Positions 19,485-30,031 of a DNA stretch of 41,827 nucleotides are shown one piece after another. The stretch lies in the NCBI GenBank assembly GCA_035945995.1, contig DASYZR010000106.1:1-41827 (forward strand), read 5' to 3'. Origin of the DNA: a bacterium. Lineage in GTDB: Bacteria > Sysuimicrobiota > Sysuimicrobiia > Sysuimicrobiales > Segetimicrobiaceae. A model generated the notes under the pieces. That model searched no databases. It was not told where the DNA came from and was given only the letters and a program-made list of their open reading frames with translations. Numbering within the stretch: position 1 is the first letter of the stretch; each line of letters begins with the position of its first letter. The translations under genes were made by a program, and so were the position numbers.

Positions 19485-21092
19485 ATGGGCGTCCTCGATT
19501 CGCACGTCGATACCGGCTCCTCCGAATTTCAGAGCAATCGCGAGCACCATGAAGGTCTGGCGCGGCTGCTCGGGGAGCGCCTTGCTCAGATCAAGGCGGG
19601 GGGCGGCGACCGCGCCCATCGCCGGCTGCGGGAGCGGGGCAAGTTGAGCGCGCGCGAGCGCATCGACCTGCTGCTGGATCCCGGCTCGCCGCTGCTCGAG
19701 ATCGCGCCGCTGGCCGCCTGGGCAATGTACGGCGGCGACGCGCCGGCCGCGGGGCTCGTCGCCGGCATCGGGCGTGTGCGCGGGCTCGAGTGCATGATCA
19801 TCGCGAACGACGCGACCGTGAAGGGCGGTACGTACTACCCGATGACCGTAAAGAAGCATCTCCGGGCGCAGCGGATCGCCCGCGACAACCGGCTCCCCTG
19901 CATCTACCTCGTCGACTCCGGCGGCGCGTTCCTGCCCCTGCAGGCCGAGGTCTTTCCGGATCGCGAGCACTTCGGTCGTATCTTCTACCATCAGGCGGTG
20001 CTCTCCGCGGACGGCATCCCGCAGATCGCCGCGGTCATGGGCTCGTGCACGGCCGGCGGCGCCTATGTGCCGGCGATGGCCGACGAAGCGGTGATTGTCC
20101 GCGGCACCGGCACCGTGTTCCTCGGCGGGCCGCCGCTCGTGCGGGCGGCGACGGGGGAGGAGGTCTCGGCCGAAGAGCTCGGCGGCGCCGACGTGCACTG
20201 CCGCCGGAGCGGCGTCACGGATCACATGGCGGACGACGACGCGCACGCGATGGAGATCGTCCGCGACATCGCCGGCACGCTCAACCGCGTCAAGCAACCG
20301 GCCCTCGATCTCGCCCCGCCCGAAGAGCCGCGCTACGATCCCCGCGAGATCTACGGCGTGCTGCCGCGGGACCTCCGCCGGCAGTTCGACGCCCGGGACG
20401 TGATCGCCCGGCTCGTCGATGGCAGCCGGTTTCAGGAGTTCAAGGCGTTGTACGGCACCACGCTCGTCACCGGCTTCGCCCGCATTCAGGGCATTCCGGT
20501 CGGCATCGTGGCCAACAACGGCGTGCTCTTCGTCGAAAGCGCCGAGAAGGGCGCGCACTTCATCGAGCTCTGCGGACAGCGGCGGATCCCGCTTCTCTTC
20601 CTGCAAAACATCACCGGGTTCATCGTCGGCCGCCAATACGAGGCCGCCGGGATCGCCCGCGCGGGGGCCAAGATGGTGCACGCCGTCGCGACCAGCGGGG
20701 TGCCGCGCGTGACCGTCATCATCGGCGGCTCGTACGGCGCCGGGAACTACGCGATGTGCGGCCGGGCCTACGACCCGCGATTCTTGTGGATGTGGCCCAA
20801 CGCCCGCATCTCGGTGATGGGCGGGGAACAGGCGGCCACGGTGCTGCTGACCGTCAAGCGCGACCAGTTGCGGCGCGAAGGCCGCACGATGTCTCCCGCC
20901 GACGGAGAGGCGCTCGTCCAGCCGATCCTGGCGAAGTATGAGACGGAAGGCGATCCCTACTACAGCACGGCGCGCCTGTGGGACGACGGCATCATCGATC
21001 CGGCGGAGACACGCACCGTGCTCGCCCTCGCCCTGTCGGCGACGCTCAACGCGCCGATCGACGGGATGCGCCCGGGCGTCTTCCGGATGTAG
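19485..21092 (+). CDS. mccB: acyl-CoA carboxylase carboxyltransferase, beta subunit (MCC type)
   Basis: A 535-residue carboxyltransferase of the 3-methylcrotonyl-CoA carboxylase beta type. It transfers CO2 from carboxybiotin to an acyl-CoA. Typical features are [55 protein letters not shown], the oxyanion-loop [13 protein letters not shown], and the second half with [39 protein letters not shown] and [10 protein letters not shown] follow near the end. Length and order agree with MccB rather than PccB, whose motifs and length (about 510) differ. Substrate is inferred; geranyl-CoA carboxylase is related. It is first in a tight run: the carboxylase gene starts four bases after it stops. The lead ATG lacks a strong ribosome site. 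Confidence 0.93.
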
Positions 21093-21096
21093 CCGC

Positions 21097-22677
21097 GTGG
21101 CGGCGCGCGCAGACCCGCCCGACCGCGGCCTGCGCCGGATCCTCGTGGCCAACCGCGGGGAAATCGCCGTGCGGATCATCCGCGCCTGCCGCGAGCTCGG
21201 CCTCGAGGTGGTGGCCGTCGCGAGCGACGCGGACCTCGATGCCCCCCACGCGCGGCTGGCGGACCGCACCCTGCACCTCGGGCCCGCCGATCCGGCCGAG
21301 AGCTACCTGCACGTCGGCCGCCTTCTCGACGCGGCGCGGCAATCGGGCGCGGATGCCGTCCACCCCGGGTACGGATTCCTCGCGGAGTCGTCCGCCTTTG
21401 CGGAGGCGGTCGCCGGCGCCGGGCTGCGCTTCATCGGGCCGCCCGCCGCGGTGATCGCCCGGCTGGGCGACAAGACCGCGGCGCGTACGCTCGCCGAGGC
21501 GGCGGGCGTCCCCACGGTTGCGGGGGGCGGCGGCGACGGCAGCGCGGACGCTTTGGCCGCGGCGGCTCAAACGCTCGGGTACCCGGTGGTCGTCAAGGCG
21601 GCGGCCGGCGGCGGCGGCCGCGGCATGCGCGTGGTCGAACGTCCGGCGGACCTCCGCCCGGCGCTCGAACTCGCGGAGCGGGAGGCACGCGCGGCCTTCG
21701 GGGACGGGCGGCTGTTCCTCGAGCGTCGGCTCCCCGACGTCCGCCACGTCGAGGTCCAGATCCTGGCGGACGCGCACGGACACGCGCTCGCGCTCGGCGA
21801 ACGCGAGTGCAGCGTGCAGCGGCGTCACCAGAAACTGGTGGAAGAGGCGCCGTCGCCGTACGTCGACGGGGACCTCCGCGGCCGGCTGGCGGCCGCCGCC
21901 GTCGCCGTGGCCCGGGCGGCGGGCTACGTCAACGCCGGCACCGTGGAGTTCCTGCTCGCGCCCGACGGGCGGTTCTATTTTCTCGAGGTCAACACGCGGC
22001 TGCAGGTCGAGCATCCGGTCACCGAACTTGTCACCGGCGTGGACCTCGTCAAAGCGCAGCTACGAATCGCCGCCGGAGAGCCCCTGTCCGGAAGCGGCGA
22101 CGCGGCCGGCCTCTCGCTCGGCGAATCGCCCGAGCCGCGGGGGCATGCGATCGAATGCCGCGTTTGCGCGGAGGACCCGGCGGAGGGATTCCGGCCGTCA
22201 CCCGGGCCGATTCTCGTCCTGGACGAGCCGGGCGGCCCCGGCGTCCGCGTCGACTCCGGGCTACGGCAAGGCTGGCGCGTCCCGGCGGCGTACGACTCTC
22301 TGCTCGCCAAGGTGATCGTGTGGGACCGGTCGCGCGCCGGCGCGATCGCACGCATGGACCAGGCCCTGCGCGCGTACGTGATCCTCGGCTGCGGCACGAA
22401 CCTGGCGTTTCTTCGCGACGTGATCCGGCACGAGGCCTTCCGGCGGGCCGAAACGACCACCGACTTTCTCGACCGGTACTTCGCGGGCTGGCAACCCGAG
22501 GCATCCGCGGGGGCGCTCGCCGTAGCCGCCGCGCTGTCGGCGGACGCGCCGCCGGGTGATCGGGCTCCCCGGGACCAGGAGGGGACCCGGGAGCGGCGAG
22601 ACCGCGACCGGCTCCCCGATCCGTGGGACGCGGGGTCGGGGTGGCGCCTCGGATCAGGCCAGCAGTCCGATGACTGA
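21097..22677 (+). CDS. biotin carboxylase subunit (MccA N-terminal part)
   Basis: A 526-residue biotin carboxylase that carboxylates the biotin of the carrier protein using ATP and bicarbonate. ILVANRGEIAVRIIRACREL is the N-terminal biotin-carboxylase signature. The ATP-grasp glycine loop is VVKAAAGGGGRGMRVVE. GYPVVVKAA, ALGERECSVQRRHQKLVEEA and FYFLEVNTRLQVEHPVTELV complete the active site. After about residue 470 comes a poorly conserved tail that ends GSGWRLGSGQQSDD. In fused MccA proteins the GWRL motif is followed directly by the BT and biotin domains in the same frame. Here those are in the next gene, which overlaps by eight bases in another frame. GTG start. Confidence 0.9.
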   Translation: MAARADPPDRGLRRILVANRGEIAVRIIRACRELGLEVVAVASDADLDAPHARLADRTLHLGPADPAESYLHVGRLLDAARQSGADAVHPGYGFLAESSAFAEAVAGAGLRFIGPPAAVIARLGDKTAARTLAEAAGVPTVAGGGGDGSADALAAAAQTLGYPVVVKAAAGGGGRGMRVVERPADLRPALELAEREARAAFGDGRLFLERRLPDVRHVEVQILADAHGHALALGERECSVQRRHQKLVEEAPSPYVDGDLRGRLAAAAVAVARAAGYVNAGTVEFLLAPDGRFYFLEVNTRLQVEHPVTELVTGVDLVKAQLRIAAGEPLSGSGDAAGLSLGESPEPRGHAIECRVCAEDPAEGFRPSPGPILVLDEPGGPGVRVDSGLRQGWRVPAAYDSLLAKVIVWDRSRAGAIARMDQALRAYVILGCGTNLAFLRDVIRHEAFRRAETTTDFLDRYFAGWQPEASAGALAVAAALSADAPPGDRAPRDQEGTRERRDRDRLPDPWDAGSGWRLGSGQQSDD

Positions 22678-23173
22678 GATCGCGCTGCTCGTGCGCCGCG
22701 CGCGTCTGACCGCGCAGGTCACCGTGCACGGAGCCGAGATCACGGTACGGCTCGGCGGCCGCGAGGTGCGCGTGCGCCTCGAGCGGCTGGACGGCACCGT
22801 CTGGCGCGCGATCATCGACGACGGCCCGGCCCGCCTCGTTCGCACCATCGACGAGGCGGGGACCCGCTGGATCCACGTCGACGGGGAGACGCTCGCGGTC
22901 CGAATCGACGCGGTCCGGCCCCGGCCCCCCGCGGCAACGCGGCCGGAATGGCTCGAGGCGCCGATGCCGGGCGCCGTGACTCAGGTGGCCGTCGGGGAGG
23001 GCGACCTCGTCGCCGCAGGGCAGCCGATCGTCATCGTCGAGGCGATGAAGATGGAACACGTGATTCGCGCGCCCCACGCCGGCCGGGTCCTGGCGCTCCG
23101 CGTGCGCGCCGGCGACCAGATCGAGGCCGGCGCCGTCGTCGCGGAGCTCACGCCGGAGGAACCGGGCCGGTGA
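22670..23173 (+). CDS. biotin carrier protein with BT-like domain
   Basis: A 167-residue carrier. Residues about 8-82 form a small beta domain matching the BT (biotin carboxylase-transferase linker) region of MccA: VTVRLGG-like strands, VRVRLERLDGTVW and ARLVRTIDEAGTRWIHVDGE. Residues about 95-165 are the biotinyl domain, MPGAVTQVAVGEGDLVAAGQ and the biotin site EAMKMEH with Lys127. IRAPHAGRVLALRVRAGDQI follows. The ATG overlaps the carboxylase stop (ATGACTGA), so synthesis is coupled. As a separate gene it is a fission product of MccA or the result of a frame change. The downstream HMG-CoA lyase starts inside its stop codon (GTGA overlap). Confidence 0.9.
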   Translation: MTEIALLVRRARLTAQVTVHGAEITVRLGGREVRVRLERLDGTVWRAIIDDGPARLVRTIDEAGTRWIHVDGETLAVRIDAVRPRPPAATRPEWLEAPMPGAVTQVAVGEGDLVAAGQPIVIVEAMKMEHVIRAPHAGRVLALRVRAGDQIEAGAVVAELTPEEPGR

Positions 23174-24123
23174 ATCCGCGCCGCGTGCGCGTCGTCGAGG
23201 TCGGACCGCGCGACGGCCTGCAGAACGAGACGGCGGTGCTGTCGCTCGACCGGAAGGTCGAGTTCGTCACCCGGCTCGCCGCGTGCGGGCTGCCGGCGAT
23301 CGAGGCGGGCGCGTTCGTGCGAGAGGACCGCGTCCCCCAGATGGCGGGGACCGACGCGCTGTTCCGACGCCTCGTCCCGCAGGGGGGACAGGTCCCACCG
23401 GAGGGAGGGCCGATCCTCTCCGCGCTCGTCCCCAACCGCCGGGGCATGGTGCGCGCCCTTGCCTGCGGGACCGCCGAGGTGGCGGTATTCACCGCCGCCT
23501 CCGATGCGTTTGCCCGCCGCAACATCGGGATGAACGTCGCCGAATCGCTGGTCCAGTTTCGCGAGGTGCTCGCGATGGCGGCGGACCATGGCCGGCGCGT
23601 TCGGGCGTACGTCTCGACGGCCTGGTGGTGTCCGTACACCGGCCGGGTGGCCCCCGAGACCGTCCGCCGTGTCGCGGTTGCGCTCGCCCGGATAGGGTGC
23701 TACGAAATCGCCCTCAGCGATACGATCGGTGCGGCGACGCCCGATGAGGTGGGGGCGCTCATCGAGACCGTGGCCCGCGACGTGCCGGTGGAGCGCCTCG
23801 CGGTCCACCTGCACGATACCCGCGGCACCGCGCTCGCGAATGTGCTGACGGCGCTGGCGGCCGGGGTGACAACCGTCGATGCGGCCGCCGGCGGCCTGGG
23901 CGGCTGTCCCTACGCGCCGGGCGCCTCCGGCAACCTCGCCACTGAGGACCTCCTCTACATGCTGCACGGAATGGGGGTGGAGACCGGCGTCGACCTGGAC
24001 GCGGTCGCCGTCACGTCGCACTGGCTCGCCGCGATCATCGGCCACACGCTGCCGTCACGGTACCTCAGCGCCGGGCGCCTCCGGCCCGCGGAGGCCGGGC
24101 GGGGCGCCGATGCGAAAGCCTGA
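23170..24123 (+). CDS. hydroxymethylglutaryl-CoA lyase
   Basis: A 317-residue HMG-CoA lyase that splits 3-hydroxy-3-methylglutaryl-CoA into acetoacetate and acetyl-CoA. VVEVGPRDGLQNETAVLSLD is the N-terminal signature with the catalytic Arg and metal-binding Asp. FTAASDAFARRNIGMNVAES is the second conserved region. HLHDTRGTALANVL supplies metal-binding His residues. GGLGGCPYAPGASGNLATED holds the catalytic Cys of the HMG-CoA lyase signature. The GTG start overlaps the carrier stop. The gene for methylglutaconyl-CoA hydratase, which would join the carboxylase product to this enzyme, is not in the window and is presumably elsewhere. Confidence 0.95.
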   Translation: MNPRRVRVVEVGPRDGLQNETAVLSLDRKVEFVTRLAACGLPAIEAGAFVREDRVPQMAGTDALFRRLVPQGGQVPPEGGPILSALVPNRRGMVRALACGTAEVAVFTAASDAFARRNIGMNVAESLVQFREVLAMAADHGRRVRAYVSTAWWCPYTGRVAPETVRRVAVALARIGCYEIALSDTIGAATPDEVGALIETVARDVPVERLAVHLHDTRGTALANVLTALAAGVTTVDAAAGGLGGCPYAPGASGNLATEDLLYMLHGMGVETGVDLDAVAVTSHWLAAIIGHTLPSRYLSAGRLRPAEAGRGADAKA

Positions 24124-24125
24124 TC

Positions 24126-25142
24126 ATGCGCCTCGGCTTGATGCTCGTCAACCAGCACCCGCCGGCCGATTCACTCGTGGGCCGCTGGGGCGAGATCCTC
24201 GACCAGGTCCGGCTGGCCCGGAGCCTGGGGTTCGACCTGATCGTCTTCGGGCAGCACTACCTCGTCGGTGAATTCGCGATGCTGCAGCCGGCCGTCTCGG
24301 TCGCGCGGGCGGCGGCCGAGGCCGGGACGATGCGGATCGGCGTCTCCATCTACCTGCTGCCGCTCCTCAATCCGGTCGCGATCGCCGAGGAGACGGCCAC
24401 TCTCGACGTCATCACCGGCGGCCGGTTCATCTTCGGCGTCGGTCTCGGCTACCGCGACGTCGAAGACCGCGCCTTTGGGGTGGCGCCCGGCGAACGCGTC
24501 CACCGGCTGCGCGCCCACCTGCGCGTCATCCGCGAGCTCTGGGCCGGCGGACCCGCGACGCTCGACACGCCCTACTGCCGTCTCGACGGCGCGCGCATCG
24601 GTCTGCGCCCCGTGCAGCGGCCGGGCCCGCCCGTCTGGATGGCCGCGAATAACGACCGGGCGGTGGCGCGCGCCGCAGAGATCGGCGACGCCTGGGTGAT
24701 CAACCCGCATGCGACGCTCGGGACGATCACGCGGCAGATCGGTATCTACCGCGCGGCCCTGGAGCGGTTCGGCCGGCCTGTCCCGGCGGAACTGCCGATG
24801 CGCCGCGAACTGTTCGTCGCGGAGACCTCGGCCCGGGCGATCGACCTGGCGCGTCCCTACATCGAGAAGAAATACGACGCGTACGTGGCCTGGGGACAGC
24901 ACAGGGCCCTGCCGGCCGGCGACGACATGACGCAGGCCTTCGAGGGCCTCGCGCAGGACCGATTCATCCTGGGCGACCCCGCGCGATGCGCGGACGAGAT
25001 CACCCGGTGCGCCGAGCTCACCGGGGCGACGACGATGATCTTCCGCGTCAATTTCCCCGGCATGCCGCCCGACGTGGTCACCGGCGCGATGCGGCTCCTC
25101 GCAGAGCAGGTGCGGCCGCGTCTCGCGGGTAAAGCGTCGTGA
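24126..25142 (+). CDS. LLM-class flavin-dependent oxidoreductase
   Basis: A 338-residue luciferase-like monooxygenase with an (alpha/beta)8 fold using reduced flavin (FMNH2 or F420). Visible family segments are MRLGLMLVNQHPPADS, LGFDLIVFGQHYLVGEF, IGVSIYLLPLLNPVAIAEE, LDVITGGRFIFGVGLGYRDV, RAHLRVIRELWAGG and the late MIFRVNFPGMPPDVV. The His of FGQHY is typical. The substrate is unknown. It follows the HMG-CoA lyase by two bases and precedes the periplasmic binding protein by 43 bases, so it probably acts on the same imported compound or one of its intermediates. The flavin type cannot be told from this sequence alone. Confidence 0.92.
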   Translation: MRLGLMLVNQHPPADSLVGRWGEILDQVRLARSLGFDLIVFGQHYLVGEFAMLQPAVSVARAAAEAGTMRIGVSIYLLPLLNPVAIAEETATLDVITGGRFIFGVGLGYRDVEDRAFGVAPGERVHRLRAHLRVIRELWAGGPATLDTPYCRLDGARIGLRPVQRPGPPVWMAANNDRAVARAAEIGDAWVINPHATLGTITRQIGIYRAALERFGRPVPAELPMRRELFVAETSARAIDLARPYIEKKYDAYVAWGQHRALPAGDDMTQAFEGLAQDRFILGDPARCADEITRCAELTGATTMIFRVNFPGMPPDVVTGAMRLLAEQVRPRLAGKAS

Positions 25143-25185
25143 ACTCTACCGGCGCCCGATGGGGCGCCGACGGGGAGGGATGGGC

Positions 25186-26415
25186 ATGGTGCGTGCCAAG
25201 AGCCGCGTAGGGATCGCGATCGCCGCGATGGTCGCCATGGGCGCGCTCGGCGTCACCGCGGGCGCGCTGCACGGTGCCGAGATCCTCAAACTCGGCGCGC
25301 CGCTCGCCGCAACCGGCGCGGACGCCCGGGAAGGCGCCCTGGCCAAACAGGGGTACGACCTCTGGGCGGAGACCGTGAACGCCCGCGGCGGGATCAAAGC
25401 CGGCGGACAGACATATAAAGTCCAGATCGTGTATTACGACGACCAGAGCAAGCCGCAGACCTCGGCCGAACTTACCGACCGGCTCATCACCCAGGACCAC
25501 GTCGCGCTGCTGCTCGGGCCCTACGGCAGCCCGGCCACGTTTGCCGACGCCGGCATCGCCGACAAGTACAAGGTGCCCATGGTCGACTCGAACGGCGCCG
25601 CGGTGAAAATCTTCGAGCAGGGCTACAAGTACGTCTTCGGGGTCACCAGTCCGGCCGCCGATTACGCGGCGGCCATGCTCAAGGCCGCGACCTCGTTGTC
25701 GCCCAGGCCGACGACCGTGGCGATCGTCTCCGCCGACGATCTGTTCTCACTCGAGGTCGCGAACGGAGCGAAGGATTGGGCCGACCACAACGGGCTCCGC
25801 GTCGTCTACTTCCAGAAGTATCCGGTCGGCGCGAACGACCTGAGCGCGGCGCTCACCGCCGTCAAGGCCGCCGGCGCAGACGTTCTCATCGGGTCCGGAC
25901 ATTTGCAAGAATCCCTCCTCACGATGCGGCAGGCGCAGAGTCTGGAAGTGAACGCGAAGTTCTTCGGATTCACGGTGGGCCCGACGACGCCGGACTTCGT
26001 CAAGGCGCTCGGGCCGGCGGCCGAGTACGTCTTCGCCTCGTCCCAGTGGACGCCCGATGTCAAGTACACCGGGCCGCTCTTCGGAAGCACCCGCCAGTAC
26101 GCCCAGGTGTTCATGAAGCGCTACGGCTTCGAGCCAGACTACCATGCCGCGAACGGGTCGGCGGGCGGCCTCGCCCTGCAACTGGCGATCCAAAACGCCG
26201 GCGGCATCGACCGGCAGAAGGTGAGGGACGCCCTCGCCGCGCTCGACGTCACGACGTTCTACGGCCGGATCAAGTTCAATGAGAAGGGCCTGAACGTCTA
26301 CAAGCCGATGGTCACCGTCCAGATCCAGCACGGCAAAGTGGTGACGGTCTGGCCCGGAAACGTCGCGGCCGCCAAGACGATGTACCCGACGCCGGTGTGG
26401 ACGGCGCGCAAGTAG
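25186..26415 (+). CDS. branched-chain amino acid-type ABC substrate-binding protein
   Basis: A 409-residue periplasmic binding protein of the LivJ/LivK (type I) family. The leader VRAKSRVGIAIAAMVAMGAL gives a signal peptide ending HGAEI. Mature features include LKLGAPLAATGADAREGALA, GYDLWAETVNARGGIKAGGQ, VQIVYYDDQSKPQTSAELTD, LLGPYGSPATFADAGIADKY and YHAANGSAGGLALQLAIQNA. The ATG chosen has GGGGAGGG seven bases upstream; two earlier in-frame ATGs would place the leader after an unlikely extension. Close relatives bind branched-chain amino acids, but also aromatic acids and amides. The neighbouring carboxylase and HMG-CoA lyase suggest a branched-chain ligand. Confidence 0.92.
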   Translation: MVRAKSRVGIAIAAMVAMGALGVTAGALHGAEILKLGAPLAATGADAREGALAKQGYDLWAETVNARGGIKAGGQTYKVQIVYYDDQSKPQTSAELTDRLITQDHVALLLGPYGSPATFADAGIADKYKVPMVDSNGAAVKIFEQGYKYVFGVTSPAADYAAAMLKAATSLSPRPTTVAIVSADDLFSLEVANGAKDWADHNGLRVVYFQKYPVGANDLSAALTAVKAAGADVLIGSGHLQESLLTMRQAQSLEVNAKFFGFTVGPTTPDFVKALGPAAEYVFASSQWTPDVKYTGPLFGSTRQYAQVFMKRYGFEPDYHAANGSAGGLALQLAIQNAGGIDRQKVRDALAALDVTTFYGRIKFNEKGLNVYKPMVTVQIQHGKVVTVWPGNVAAAKTMYPTPVWTARK

Positions 26416-26464
26416 CCGCAAGAAATCCTGAGGCCGCGGTGCGGGGGGCCGTTCCGGTCCGCGA

Positions 26465-26506
26465 AGCCGGGGCTGCGCTGCCTCCCCCTTCGTGGGACTC
26501 TCGCCG
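26465..26506. repeat. 42-bp dispersed inverted repeat, copy A
   Basis: Reverse complement of positions 29255-29296 with four mismatches in 42 bases by eye. It contains a core CCTCCCCCTTCGTGGGACT. It fills the space just before the livH GTG, where a ribosome-binding site would be expected. Copy B lies within livF. Confidence 0.8.
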
Positions 26507-27394
26507 GTGAGCCCGGCAGCCCAGATCGCGTTACAAAACGCGGTCAACGGCCTGCTGATCGGCGGCACCTACGCCACCGTCGGCCTCGGCATGTCCCTGG
26601 TGTGGGGCGTGCTCAACGTCATCAACATTGCGCACGGCGCGTTTGTGATGCTGGGCGCGTACACGACCTACTGGCTGTTTACGCTCTACGGCATCGACCC
26701 GTTTGCGGCACTGCCGCTTGCGGGTGCGGCCCTGTTCGTCCTCGGTTACGGGCTACAGCGCGTGGTGGTCAACCAGGTCATCCGCGCGTCGTTCTTGATC
26801 ACGTTTCTGCTGACGTTCGGCTTTGAGCTGCTGATCACGAACATCGCCCTCGCGGCGTGGACGGCCGACGTGCGGGCCATCACGACGGCCTACTCCGGCC
26901 GGAGCCTGCACCTCGGGCCCGTGATCGTCCCGGCCATCCGCCTCATGACGCTCGGCGCGGCGCTGCTCGTCGCCGTGCTCCTGCACCTCCTCATGAGCCG
27001 GACGCGCCTCGGGAGCGCGATCCGGGCCACGGCGTCGGATCAGGAAGCGGCGCGCCTGATGGGGATTCCGATCGGCCACGTCTACGCGATCACGTTCGCG
27101 ATCGCACTCGCGACGGCCGGGATCGCCGGGGGGCTGGCCGGCATGAGCTTTCCCATCTACCCGGCGATGGGCGCCAACTACACCTTCATCGGCTTCGTGG
27201 TCTGCGTGCTCGGCGGCCTCGGCAGCGTCGCCGGCGCCTTGGTGGGCGGGCTGATCTTCGGCCTGCTGACGACGTACGCCGCGGGCTGGCTCGGCCCCAA
27301 CTACGACTACATCGTGGCGTTCAGCGCGTTGATCCTCGTCCTGCTCGTGCGTCCCGCCGGGCTGCTTGGACGCGCGGCGCGGTTTCGCGGATGA
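26507..27394 (+). CDS. livH: LivH-type ABC permease
   Basis: A 295-residue inner-membrane permease of the branched-chain amino acid family, with about eight hydrophobic helices. Diagnostic parts are NAVNGLLIGGTYATVGLGMS, VWGVLNVINIAHGAFVMLGA, FLLTFGFELLITNIALAAWT, the ATASDQEAARLMGI EAA-like loop that contacts the ATPase, and GFVVCVLGGLGSVAGALVGG. It pairs with LivM to form the channel. The GTG taken lies directly after repeat copy A; an in-frame GTG 15 bases upstream lies inside the repeat. Neither has a good ribosome site. The stop overlaps the livM ATG by four bases. Confidence 0.93.
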   Translation: MSPAAQIALQNAVNGLLIGGTYATVGLGMSLVWGVLNVINIAHGAFVMLGAYTTYWLFTLYGIDPFAALPLAGAALFVLGYGLQRVVVNQVIRASFLITFLLTFGFELLITNIALAAWTADVRAITTAYSGRSLHLGPVIVPAIRLMTLGAALLVAVLLHLLMSRTRLGSAIRATASDQEAARLMGIPIGHVYAITFAIALATAGIAGGLAGMSFPIYPAMGANYTFIGFVVCVLGGLGSVAGALVGGLIFGLLTTYAAGWLGPNYDYIVAFSALILVLLVRPAGLLGRAARFRG

Positions 27395-28467
27395 CGGGGC
27401 AGGTCCCGCGCGAGACGGGGCAGGAGGACGCGAAGCGGCCGGAGGTCCCGCGCGAGACGGGGCAGGAGGACGCGGAGCGGCCGGAGGTCCCGCGCGAGAC
27501 GGGGCGCGACTTGCGCGGCCTCGCCGTCCCGGCGGCCGTCCTGGTCGTGGCACTTGCGCTGCCCGGCGTCCTCAACACCTACTACGTCCGGATCCTCACC
27601 GGCATCTTCTTGTTCGGCATCCTCGCCTCAGCGTGGAACCTCATCGGCGGCTACACCGGCTACCCCGACTTCGGCGGCGCGGCGTTCCTCGGCATCGGCG
27701 CCTACACGACCGGCATCGTCATGGTGCGGGCCCACCTGCCGTTCGCGGCGGCGCTGCCCGCCGGTTGCGTGGTGGCCGCGGCCGCGGCGACTGGTATGGG
27801 CGCCCTGCTGCTCCGGCTGCGCGGCCACTACTTTGCCATCGCGACGCTCGGCTTCATGTTTGTCCTGCGGCAGCTCACCGCGAACCTCGAGATCACCGGC
27901 GGGGGATCGGGGATGAACCTGCCGGCGGCGAGCGACTTCAAGATCTTCTACTACTGGATGCTCGCCGCGCTCGTGCTGTCGGTCTCCGCCGGGTTCGCGC
28001 TGCCGCGCACGCGGGCCGGCTATGCGATCGCGGCGATCCGCGAGAATCAGGACGCCGCCCAGGTCCTCGGCATCGAACCTCTGCCCTACAAAATCCTGGC
28101 GTACGCGGCGAACGCGTTCCTGTTCGCCGCCGCCGGAGGCATCTACGCGTATTGGCTCACGTTCATCGAGCCGCTCAGCGTCTTCAACATCGACTTCACG
28201 GTCCAGGCGGTGGTCATGGCCCTCTTCGGCGGGCCCGGAACGGTCTTCGGGCCCGTCGCCGGCGCGATTATTCTCAAGACGCTCGACGTCGCCCTGACCA
28301 ACGTCTCGCTGTTTCTCCACAACGTCTTCTTCGGCGCGCTTGTCTGCGTGCTGGTCATCTTCGCTCCGCGGGGGCTGGCCGAACTCTTCCGGGCCTCCTC
28401 GGGCGAGGGCGGGCCGGCGGGGCTGCGCGCGTCGATTCGCGACGCGCTGCAGGAGAACCGGGTCTAG
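27391..28467 (+). CDS. livM: LivM-type ABC permease with repeat-built N terminus
   Basis: A 358-residue permease. The first about 40 residues are an acidic/basic tandem repeat (PEVPRETGQEDAKR units of 14 residues), not part of the family. From about residue 45 the normal permease follows: LAVPAAVLVVALALPGVLNT, FLFGILASAWNLIGGYTGYP, DFGGAAFLGIGAYTTGIVMV and RLRGHYFAIATLGFMFVLRQ. GYAIAAIRENQDAAQVLGIE is the ATPase-contact loop. AVVMALFGGPGTVFGPVAGA is also present. It forms the translocation channel with LivH. The ATG overlaps the livH stop. Codons after the repeat are like those of neighbouring genes, so only the N terminus is unusual. Confidence 0.93.
   Translation: MTGQVPRETGQEDAKRPEVPRETGQEDAERPEVPRETGRDLRGLAVPAAVLVVALALPGVLNTYYVRILTGIFLFGILASAWNLIGGYTGYPDFGGAAFLGIGAYTTGIVMVRAHLPFAAALPAGCVVAAAAATGMGALLLRLRGHYFAIATLGFMFVLRQLTANLEITGGGSGMNLPAASDFKIFYYWMLAALVLSVSAGFALPRTRAGYAIAAIRENQDAAQVLGIEPLPYKILAYAANAFLFAAAGGIYAYWLTFIEPLSVFNIDFTVQAVVMALFGGPGTVFGPVAGAIILKTLDVALTNVSLFLHNVFFGALVCVLVIFAPRGLAELFRASSGEGGPAGLRASIRDALQENRV
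27401..27505. repeat. 42-bp tandem repeat, 2.5 copies, in livM
   Basis: Two full units start at 27401 and 27443 and a half unit at 27485, each beginning AGGTCCCGCGCGAGACGGGG. Period 42 bases equals 14 codons, so it keeps frame and adds VPRETGQEDA-type units to the cytoplasmic N terminus. Units differ at only one or two positions, so duplication appears recent. Confidence 0.92.
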
Positions 28468-29219
28468 TGCCGCTCCTCACGGCGATGGGGGTGACGAAGT
28501 TCTTCGGCCGCCTGGCGGCCGTCCACCGGGTCGACCTCGCGATCGAACCCGGCGAGATCGTCGGGCTCATCGGTCCGAACGGCGCCGGGAAGAGTACGCT
28601 CGTGAACGTCATTACGGGCATGGAGGCGCCGACCGCCGGCCGCGTCGAGTTCGCCGGGTCGGACATCACGGGCCGGCGCCCCGCGGCGATCGCGCGGCTC
28701 GGCATCGCCCGGACGTTCCAGATCGCGCAGCCGTTCCGCAACATGTCGGTCCGCCAGAACGTCGCGGTGCCGCTGCTGTTCCGCGCGGCGCCCGCCGCCG
28801 GCGTCGCCGACGCGCTCCGCCGGGCGGACGAGGTGCTGGAGGCCGTCGGGCTCGCCGCGAAGCGCGACCTTCCGGCGCGCGTGTTGACGACCCCCGACCT
28901 CCGCCGGCTCGAGCTCGCCAAGGCGATCGCGCTGCGTCCGCGCCTCATGCTCCTCGATGAGGTGATGGCCGGGCTCACGCACGCAGAGACCGACGCGGAC
29001 ATGGCGCTGCTCCGCCGCATCAACGCGCAGGGGATCACGCTGCTCGTGATCGAGCACGTGCTGCGCGTCGTGATGGGGCTGTGCCGGCGCGTCGTCGTGC
29101 TTCACCACGGCTCGAAGATCGCGGAGGGATCCCCGCAGCAGGTGACGTCCGATCCCGCCGTCATCGACGCGTATCTGGGACCGCGCCACGCGTTGCGCGG
29201 CGGGCCGGGGTCGCGATGA
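28467..29219 (+). CDS. livG: LivG-type ABC ATPase
   Basis: A 250-residue ATPase of the branched-chain amino acid transporter. Walker A is GLIGPNGAGKSTLVNVITG. The Q-loop region is GIARTFQIAQPFRNMSVRQN. Walker B is LMLLDEVMAGL, followed by switch His in LVIEHVLRVVM. The C-terminal DPAVIDAYLG is the LivG tail. The ABC signature is divergent: the usual LSGGQ(Q)RRLE is replaced by LTTPDLRRLELAKAIAL. The partner LivF has a normal LSGGEQQM, so the dimer may have one canonical and one degenerate site. GTG start shares its first base with the last base of the livM stop (TAGTG); its stop overlaps livF by four bases. Confidence 0.92.
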   Translation: MPLLTAMGVTKFFGRLAAVHRVDLAIEPGEIVGLIGPNGAGKSTLVNVITGMEAPTAGRVEFAGSDITGRRPAAIARLGIARTFQIAQPFRNMSVRQNVAVPLLFRAAPAAGVADALRRADEVLEAVGLAAKRDLPARVLTTPDLRRLELAKAIALRPRLMLLDEVMAGLTHAETDADMALLRRINAQGITLLVIEHVLRVVMGLCRRVVVLHHGSKIAEGSPQQVTSDPAVIDAYLGPRHALRGGPGSR

Positions 29220-30031
29220 CCCCGTCTTCGCGGGGCGGTGCGGCCCCGTCTTCGCGGCGACAGTCCCACGAAGGGGGAGGCGGTGCGGCCCCGGCTCCAC
29301 TCCTCCACGTCGAGCGCCTCGATGCCGGCTACGGCGGCGTCCAGGTCCTCTGGGACGTCACGCTCGAGGTGCGGCGGGGGGAAGTGGTCGCGCTCGTCGG
29401 CAGCAACGGCGCCGGCAAGTCGACGCTGCTGCGCGCCGTCTCCGGCCTGCTGCGGCCGTGGCGCGGCAACGTACGCTGGGACGGGCGAGACATCGCCGGA
29501 CTACCGCCCGAGGCGATCGTCCGGCTGGGAATGGCGCACGTGCCCCAGGGCCGGCGCCTCTTCGCGGATCTGACACTGCAGGAGAACCTCCTCGTCGGCG
29601 CCTACGCCCGCACGGACCGCGGGGCGATCGCCGCGGACCTCCGCGACGTCCTCGACCTATTCCCGGTCCTGGGGGAGCGCCTTCATCTGACGGCCGGCCA
29701 GTTGAGCGGCGGCGAGCAGCAGATGGCCGCCCTGGCCCGCGCGCTCATGGCCCGGCCGCAGCTGCTGCTGATCGATGAGCCGTCGCTGGGGCTCGCCCCC
29801 ATCGCGGTCCAGGGGCTCATGGACGCCGTCGACCGGCTGCGCGGGCGCGGCACGAGTCTTCTGCTCGTCGAGCAGGACGTCGCCGTCGCCCTGGAGCACG
29901 CCGACCGCGGGTATGTCATGGAGACGGGCCACATCGCGCTCGCCGACACCGCGAGCGCGCTCTTGCGGAGTCCGCGGGTGAAAGAAGCGTACCTCGGTGT
30001 GGCCGCCGGGAGCGCCGAGACGCTACAATAA
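29216..30031 (+). CDS. livF: LivF-type ABC ATPase with repeat-derived N-terminal extension
   Basis: A 271-residue ATPase. Residues about 1-28 (MTPSSRGGAAPSSRRQSHEG and following GGGAAPAP) are encoded by repeat DNA and are not part of LivF proteins. The family begins LLHVERLDAGYGGVQVLWDV. Walker A is GSNGAGKSTLLRAVSG. The Q-loop region has MAHVPQGRRLFADLTLQENL. The signature is QLSGGEQQMAALARALMARP and Walker B LLLIDEPSLGLAPI. Switch His is replaced by the usual Gln of LivF (LVEQDV), and the tail RVKEAYLG is standard. If translation starts at the ATGA overlap, the repeat-coded part is made; a start after the repeat is not visible. Confidence 0.92.
   Translation: MTPSSRGGAAPSSRRQSHEGGGGAAPAPLLHVERLDAGYGGVQVLWDVTLEVRRGEVVALVGSNGAGKSTLLRAVSGLLRPWRGNVRWDGRDIAGLPPEAIVRLGMAHVPQGRRLFADLTLQENLLVGAYARTDRGAIAADLRDVLDLFPVLGERLHLTAGQLSGGEQQMAALARALMARPQLLLIDEPSLGLAPIAVQGLMDAVDRLRGRGTSLLLVEQDVAVALEHADRGYVMETGHIALADTASALLRSPRVKEAYLGVAAGSAETLQ
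29255..29296. repeat. 42-bp dispersed inverted repeat, copy B, within livF
   Basis: Inverted copy of 26465-26506, 38 of 42 bases identical by eye, with core AGTCCCACGAAGGGGGAGGC. It sits next to a 24-base direct repeat (CCCCGTCTTCGCGG at 29220 and 29244) and a repeated GGCGGTGCGGCCCC (29234 and 29279). The two copies bracket about 2.75 kb of the transporter operon. Confidence 0.82.

Follow-up and report, generated by a model that had tools for sequence, protein, structure and literature searches.

In a 41,827-nucleotide stretch of bacterial DNA (the window), we find what is, with a probability of roughly 0.87, a three-subunit enzyme of the 3-methylcrotonyl-CoA carboxylase (MCC) type, with an alpha subunit that is naturally the product of two overlapping genes. 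The two-gene form of the MCC alpha subunit is itself natural and conserved across the family: in 12 of 12 genomes of the family, the window included, a carrier gene is present with a separate biotin carboxylase (BC) gene directly upstream. What resembles a broken MccA gene is a design that relatives conserve, and automated pipelines ought therefore not to label such a pair as frameshifted.

The gene pair and the enzyme it encodes

The BC gene (21097..22677, + strand) starts with GTG and is translated into 526 amino acids (P0004) with the Pfam domains Biotin_carb_N, CPSase_L_D2, and Biotin_carb_C. The C-terminal end of the protein is DPWDAGSGWRLGSGQQSDD, the stop codon TGA is at 22675-22677, and the BT helix and hook are encoded at the end of the gene. 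The gene for the BT barrel and biotinyl carrier (22670..23173, + strand) runs from ATG 22670 to a stop at 23171-23173 and encodes 167 amino acids (P0001) with a Biotin_lipoyl domain (Pfam, 2.3e-18). These translations confirm the initial annotation, in which the carboxylase gene ends here and the BT and biotin part continues in another frame from ATG 22670 with an overlap of eight bases. The overlap of stop and start, ATGACTGA (22670..22677, + strand, 8 nt), has an identical length in 11 of 12 family genomes, window included, and sets the carrier in frame +1 relative to the BC frame. Such an overlap of the stop and start codons is one of the marks of a pair coupled by termination-reinitiation.

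The carrier frame had also been described as open from 22556. It is open, and even from 22526, as no stop occurs from that position and the first start codon upstream of ATG 22670 is GTG 22556, but this openness is not evidence of coding, because the G+C-rich DNA here has many spurious open frames. Within the genus, substitutions are highest at the third position on both sides of the junction, as is typical of coding DNA, and the alignment of 22556-22669 is gappy, with neither frame having a clear coding pattern. A carrier start at GTG 22556 instead of ATG 22670 was considered and rejected for these upstream features, and it is also contradicted by the 19 of 21 loci in the order that have a start codon overlapping the stop.

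The carboxyltransferase (CT) gene (19485..21092, + strand; Pfam Carboxyl_trans, 2.5e-153) is of the MCC beta type. In comparison with PDB entries, its product scored 784 bits with human and 763 bits with Pseudomonas aeruginosa MCC beta, relative to 457 with geranyl-CoA carboxylase (GCC) beta, which places it closest to MCC beta and not to GCC beta, as expected of an MCC. It also scored 783 to AccD1 (4q0g), which has the depositor name "probable acetyl-/propionyl-CoA carboxylase", and 761 to 9tps, named "propionyl CoA carboxylase beta"; the 9tps sequence recurs in 9tqc, titled as the L. pneumophila MCC holoenzyme. The AMKM motif with the biotinyl lysine, a further mark of MCC, is present as EAMKME. 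The carrier gene is followed, with a 4-nt overlap (GTGA), by a gene for HMG-CoA lyase (23170..24123, + strand; NF004283, 352 bits relative to a cutoff of 246), and further downstream by a gene for a branched-chain amino-acid-type binding protein, which at 81.5 bits is below the curated cutoff of 477. The neighborhood is thus one of leucine catabolism, as is usual for MCC, and the locus looks like a leucine-catabolism operon, so that the enzyme is most likely 3-methylcrotonyl-CoA carboxylase. BC, carrier, and CT are encoded on three polypeptides, as in three-subunit acyl-CoA carboxylases, and the arrangement of the classical two-subunit MCC, with BC, BT, and BCCP on one polypeptide, is replaced here by two genes in different frames.

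Two other features were evident downstream. Between the genes for HMG-CoA lyase and the binding protein, 24126-25142 encodes a luciferase-like (LLM, F420-type) oxidoreductase. In 25159-30031, the binding protein gene is followed by frames that, by eye, resemble genes for the permease and ATPase components of that transporter; the profile scan of this region covered the binding protein alone.

Conservation of the split and probable coupling of translation

In order to determine the arrangement in relatives, the carrier protein was searched in 61 genomes, 55 of which had a match. In 11 of the 12 family loci, the carrier gene is in a different frame from the BC gene and overlaps it by 8 nt, with ATG or GTG as the start codon, and in the remaining locus (L018) it is in the BC frame, behind a stop and a 15-nt gap. 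Elsewhere in the order, a 4-nt overlap is present in seven of seven loci of one family (f4) and in one of two loci of another (f6), where the other locus (L025) has a gap. A split arrangement is shared by all 21 MCC-type loci that the order yielded (8 nt, n = 11; 4 nt, n = 8; gap, n = 2), and comparison of orthologs in the 12 family genomes and the 21 order loci accordingly yielded no case of one continuous MccA frame. A separate observation concerns a relative (L021, on G019:C3) that has an internal TAG in the carrier frame and a BC match that changes frame, which points to a broken or mis-assembled copy.

This conservation decides one of the explanations offered at first, namely that a one-base sequencing or assembly error has broken up what is in fact a continuous gene. 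The window is one of the 181 contigs of a draft genome, where an error of this kind could arise, but two genes are present in 12 of 12 separate family genomes, 11 of them with the identical overlap. Because the split is conserved across the family and order loci, an error is excluded.

Fused and split forms were both found outside the order. Eighty named loci, mostly from Streptomyces and other Actinomycetota, were matched by the carrier protein, and 79 of these are fused and one is split (L081). A carrier profile matched 291 of 389 genomes; it was built from split forms alone and its ranking therefore favors split forms, and among the 33 top-ranked places of the longer list outside the order for which DNA was read (L128 and L131-L162), 23 are clearly split and 4 are fused. 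For five of the remaining six, no BC hit lies upstream on that strand, and one (L155) is ambiguous in that its BC match itself changes frame. Of 581 plasmid records examined, none had a single place covering 80% of the query.

Another of the initial suggestions was a programmed frameshift giving some fused product; here this would be a +1 ribosomal shift shortly ahead of 22675, yielding BC-BT-BCCP. It would agree with a carrier frame that is open upstream of its start, and a +1 shift would yield a sensible MccA of 691 residues that folds like one when modeled. However, a programmed frameshift needs one conserved frame relation, and none exists, since an 8-nt overlap sets the downstream gene in frame +1, a 4-nt overlap sets it in the opposite frame (+2), and relations of +0, +1, and +2 are all present in other bacteria. 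That stop and start codon overlap in 19 of the 21 loci of the order also argues against a frameshift, as does the lack, by eye, of a slippery stop context at GAT GAC TGA. Given the differing frame relations between lineages, we regard this mechanism as highly improbable.

Overlapping genes are commonly coupled by termination-reinitiation. Strict coupling is reported in PMC6728339 for 13 of 14 overlapping pairs tested, and PMC10666635 describes overlapping pairs as often encoding subunits of heteromeric complexes. The Shine-Dalgarno sequence before the carrier start is weak, with at least four contiguous matches to AGGAGG in 1 of 12 family loci, which is what one would expect of a start that relies on translation of the gene before it. 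Termination-reinitiation coupling appears to fit the junction best. In such a mechanism, ribosomes terminating at TGA 22675 would re-initiate a few bases back at ATG 22670, and the BC and carrier chains would be produced together. Docking of the BC chain's helix and hook with the barrel of the carrier chain would then rebuild the BT domain, which would hold BC and CT together, and biotin on Lys127 would shuttle CO2 from BC to CT during leucine breakdown.

Position of the cut within the BT domain

The BT domain consists of a central helix, a long loop termed the hook, and an eight-stranded barrel, with one barrel strand missing in P. aeruginosa MCC, and the C-terminal part of the hook starts with a Trp (543 in human MCC numbering) that is buried in the CT subunit, as described in passages of PMC4673880. 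In the BC chain of the window, the central helix is predicted at P0004 residues 471-483 (22507..22545, + strand; AlphaFold2, joined reading of the two genes), and the hook motif DPWDAGSGWRLG at residues 508-519 (22618..22653, + strand) aligns with the hook of fused MccA. The initial annotation likened this tail to the start of the BT region in fused MccA, a resemblance that phmmer upholds: its alignment of P0004 with P. aeruginosa MCC alpha (3u9s) reaches residue 525 and takes in the DPWDAGSGWRLG stretch. From the residue numbers, we infer that W516 is the equivalent of human MCC Trp543.

The hook is a consistent feature of these tails. Each of the 21 MCC-type BC genes in the order encodes a PW pair within its last 25 residues, relative to 5.6 expected from shuffles, as do 18 of 24 split rows outside the order, relative to 3.1 expected, where the 24 rows include the ambiguous L155, scored with a wrong tail. 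It was found in none of eight split paralogues of another type and is absent from the genome's own AccC. The second hook Trp is present in 16 of 21 order loci and is replaced by R, S, or A in the other five (L014, L015, L016, L020, and L022), all of which keep PW, so that the contact made by the second Trp is not universal. For the fused named loci, the biotin motif could be found in 78 of 79, and 70 of these 78 contain P[WF]x3-6W.

In the carrier chain, AlphaFold2 predicts the eight strands of the BT barrel at P0001 residues 2-84 (22673..22921, + strand) and the strands of the biotinyl domain at residues 93-162 (22946..23155, + strand); the 167-amino-acid carrier modeled alone gave a barrel and a biotinyl domain with a mean pLDDT of 92.4. 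The presumed biotin lysine K127 (23048-23050, + strand) is part of EAMKME (residues 124-129) and is invariant in 20 of 20 rows. By structure comparison, carrier residues 1-163 align with human MCC alpha 550-717 and residues 1-161 with human PCC alpha 558-728, and residue 1 corresponds to residue 550 of both human and P. aeruginosa MCC alpha; the rmsd of the long alignments is 12-16 A, probably due to differing placement of the two domains, and they therefore show order and extent, not exact superposition. Helix 471-483 and eight strands at 526-604 come together in the one model of the joined reading, where the hook, modeled in isolation and as one chain, has a low pLDDT.

Because the helix and hook are on the BC chain and a complete predicted barrel is on the carrier chain, the cut is predicted to fall between the hook and the first barrel strand, within the BT domain. 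Such a cut site says that the BT helix and barrel can come from different chains, and it leads to a testable prediction on how three-subunit carboxylases tie BC to CT. No published description of a BT domain divided between two chains was found among titles, abstract openings, and passages.

Comparison with known systems sets this cut apart. The MCC alpha6beta6 holoenzyme (P. aeruginosa 3u9s/3u9t and human 8j4z) shares the MCC-type CT, BC, hook, barrel, and biotinyl domain, arranged along the sequence as in the window, but in the latter alpha would consist of two chains, cut between the hook and the first barrel strand. The structure 1z6h, which we take to be Bacillus subtilis BLAP, is a biotinyl domain alone of about 72 residues without a barrel, whereas the carrier of the window has one. 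BLAP (YngHB) is likewise a separate biotinyl protein; according to passages of PMC4016012, its neighbor genes in the yng cluster have carboxylase-subunit annotations and are suggested to encode an MCC that serves leucine degradation. The archaeal three-subunit acyl-CoA carboxylases also have separate BC, BCCP/carrier, and CT, according to passages of PMC3199775. A three-subunit carboxylase is already a known kind, and what merits attention from specialists is where the cut falls, inside the BT domain.

Origin of the two-gene form

The locus is relevant to the question of which came first, separate chains or a fused alpha subunit. A tree was built from hand-chosen rows, comprising 25 of 83 fused loci, 18 of 21 order loci, 8 split XCC, 22 further split loci (L081 plus 21 of the 23 that are clearly split outside the order), and 11 AccC sequences as an outgroup. 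In this AccC-rooted tree, the fused sequences sampled, 25 in all, group together (84/90), the window's lineage lies outside that group, the 18 order sequences form a group of their own (100/98), and one change is needed for the fused/split character. It replaced an earlier tree with a single AccC row, where support for the fused group was 61/91 and the AccC row was placed beside the window's order.

The initial annotation had proposed, as one option, a natural fission with coupled translation. The natural split holds, and coupled translation would fit the junction, but fission, in which an ancestral fused MccA was cut into two overlapping genes in this lineage, is doubtful on the rooted tree (84/90). 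A cut inside one structural domain does resemble a broken fusion, and a tree in which the order was forced together with actinobacterial fused sequences was not rejected (AU p 0.138). However, the best tree places one fused group apart from the window's lineage, the corresponding grouping with proteobacterial fused sequences was rejected (p 0.027), and 23 clearly split loci are in lineages outside the order. We therefore consider fission unlikely. The two-gene form probably predates the fusion present in Actinomycetota and Pseudomonadota, which is a likelier history for these sequences than fission. A three-subunit ancestor with a later BC-BCCP fusion is proposed in passages of PMC3199775, and this fits such a history.

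A wider reading, to which we give even odds as a whole, is that in many lineages of bacteria two proteins are obligately needed to assemble the BT domain of acyl-CoA/methylcrotonyl-CoA carboxylases, with the BC chain giving the central helix and, at its very C-terminus, the hook that contacts CT, and the carrier giving the barrel. In this reading, co-translation of the overlapping genes would aid the pairing in the window's lineage, and the fused alpha subunit known from structures would be a derived form that arose by a single later fusion.

A second split BC/carrier pair is present in the same genome (L002, on G000:C21), with a 4-nt overlap and a different BC tail, AWIEAARREGLS. A similar motif, W..AAR.EGL, closes the sequence in several of this paralogue's relatives within the order, and it is possible that this tail is a second type of hook.
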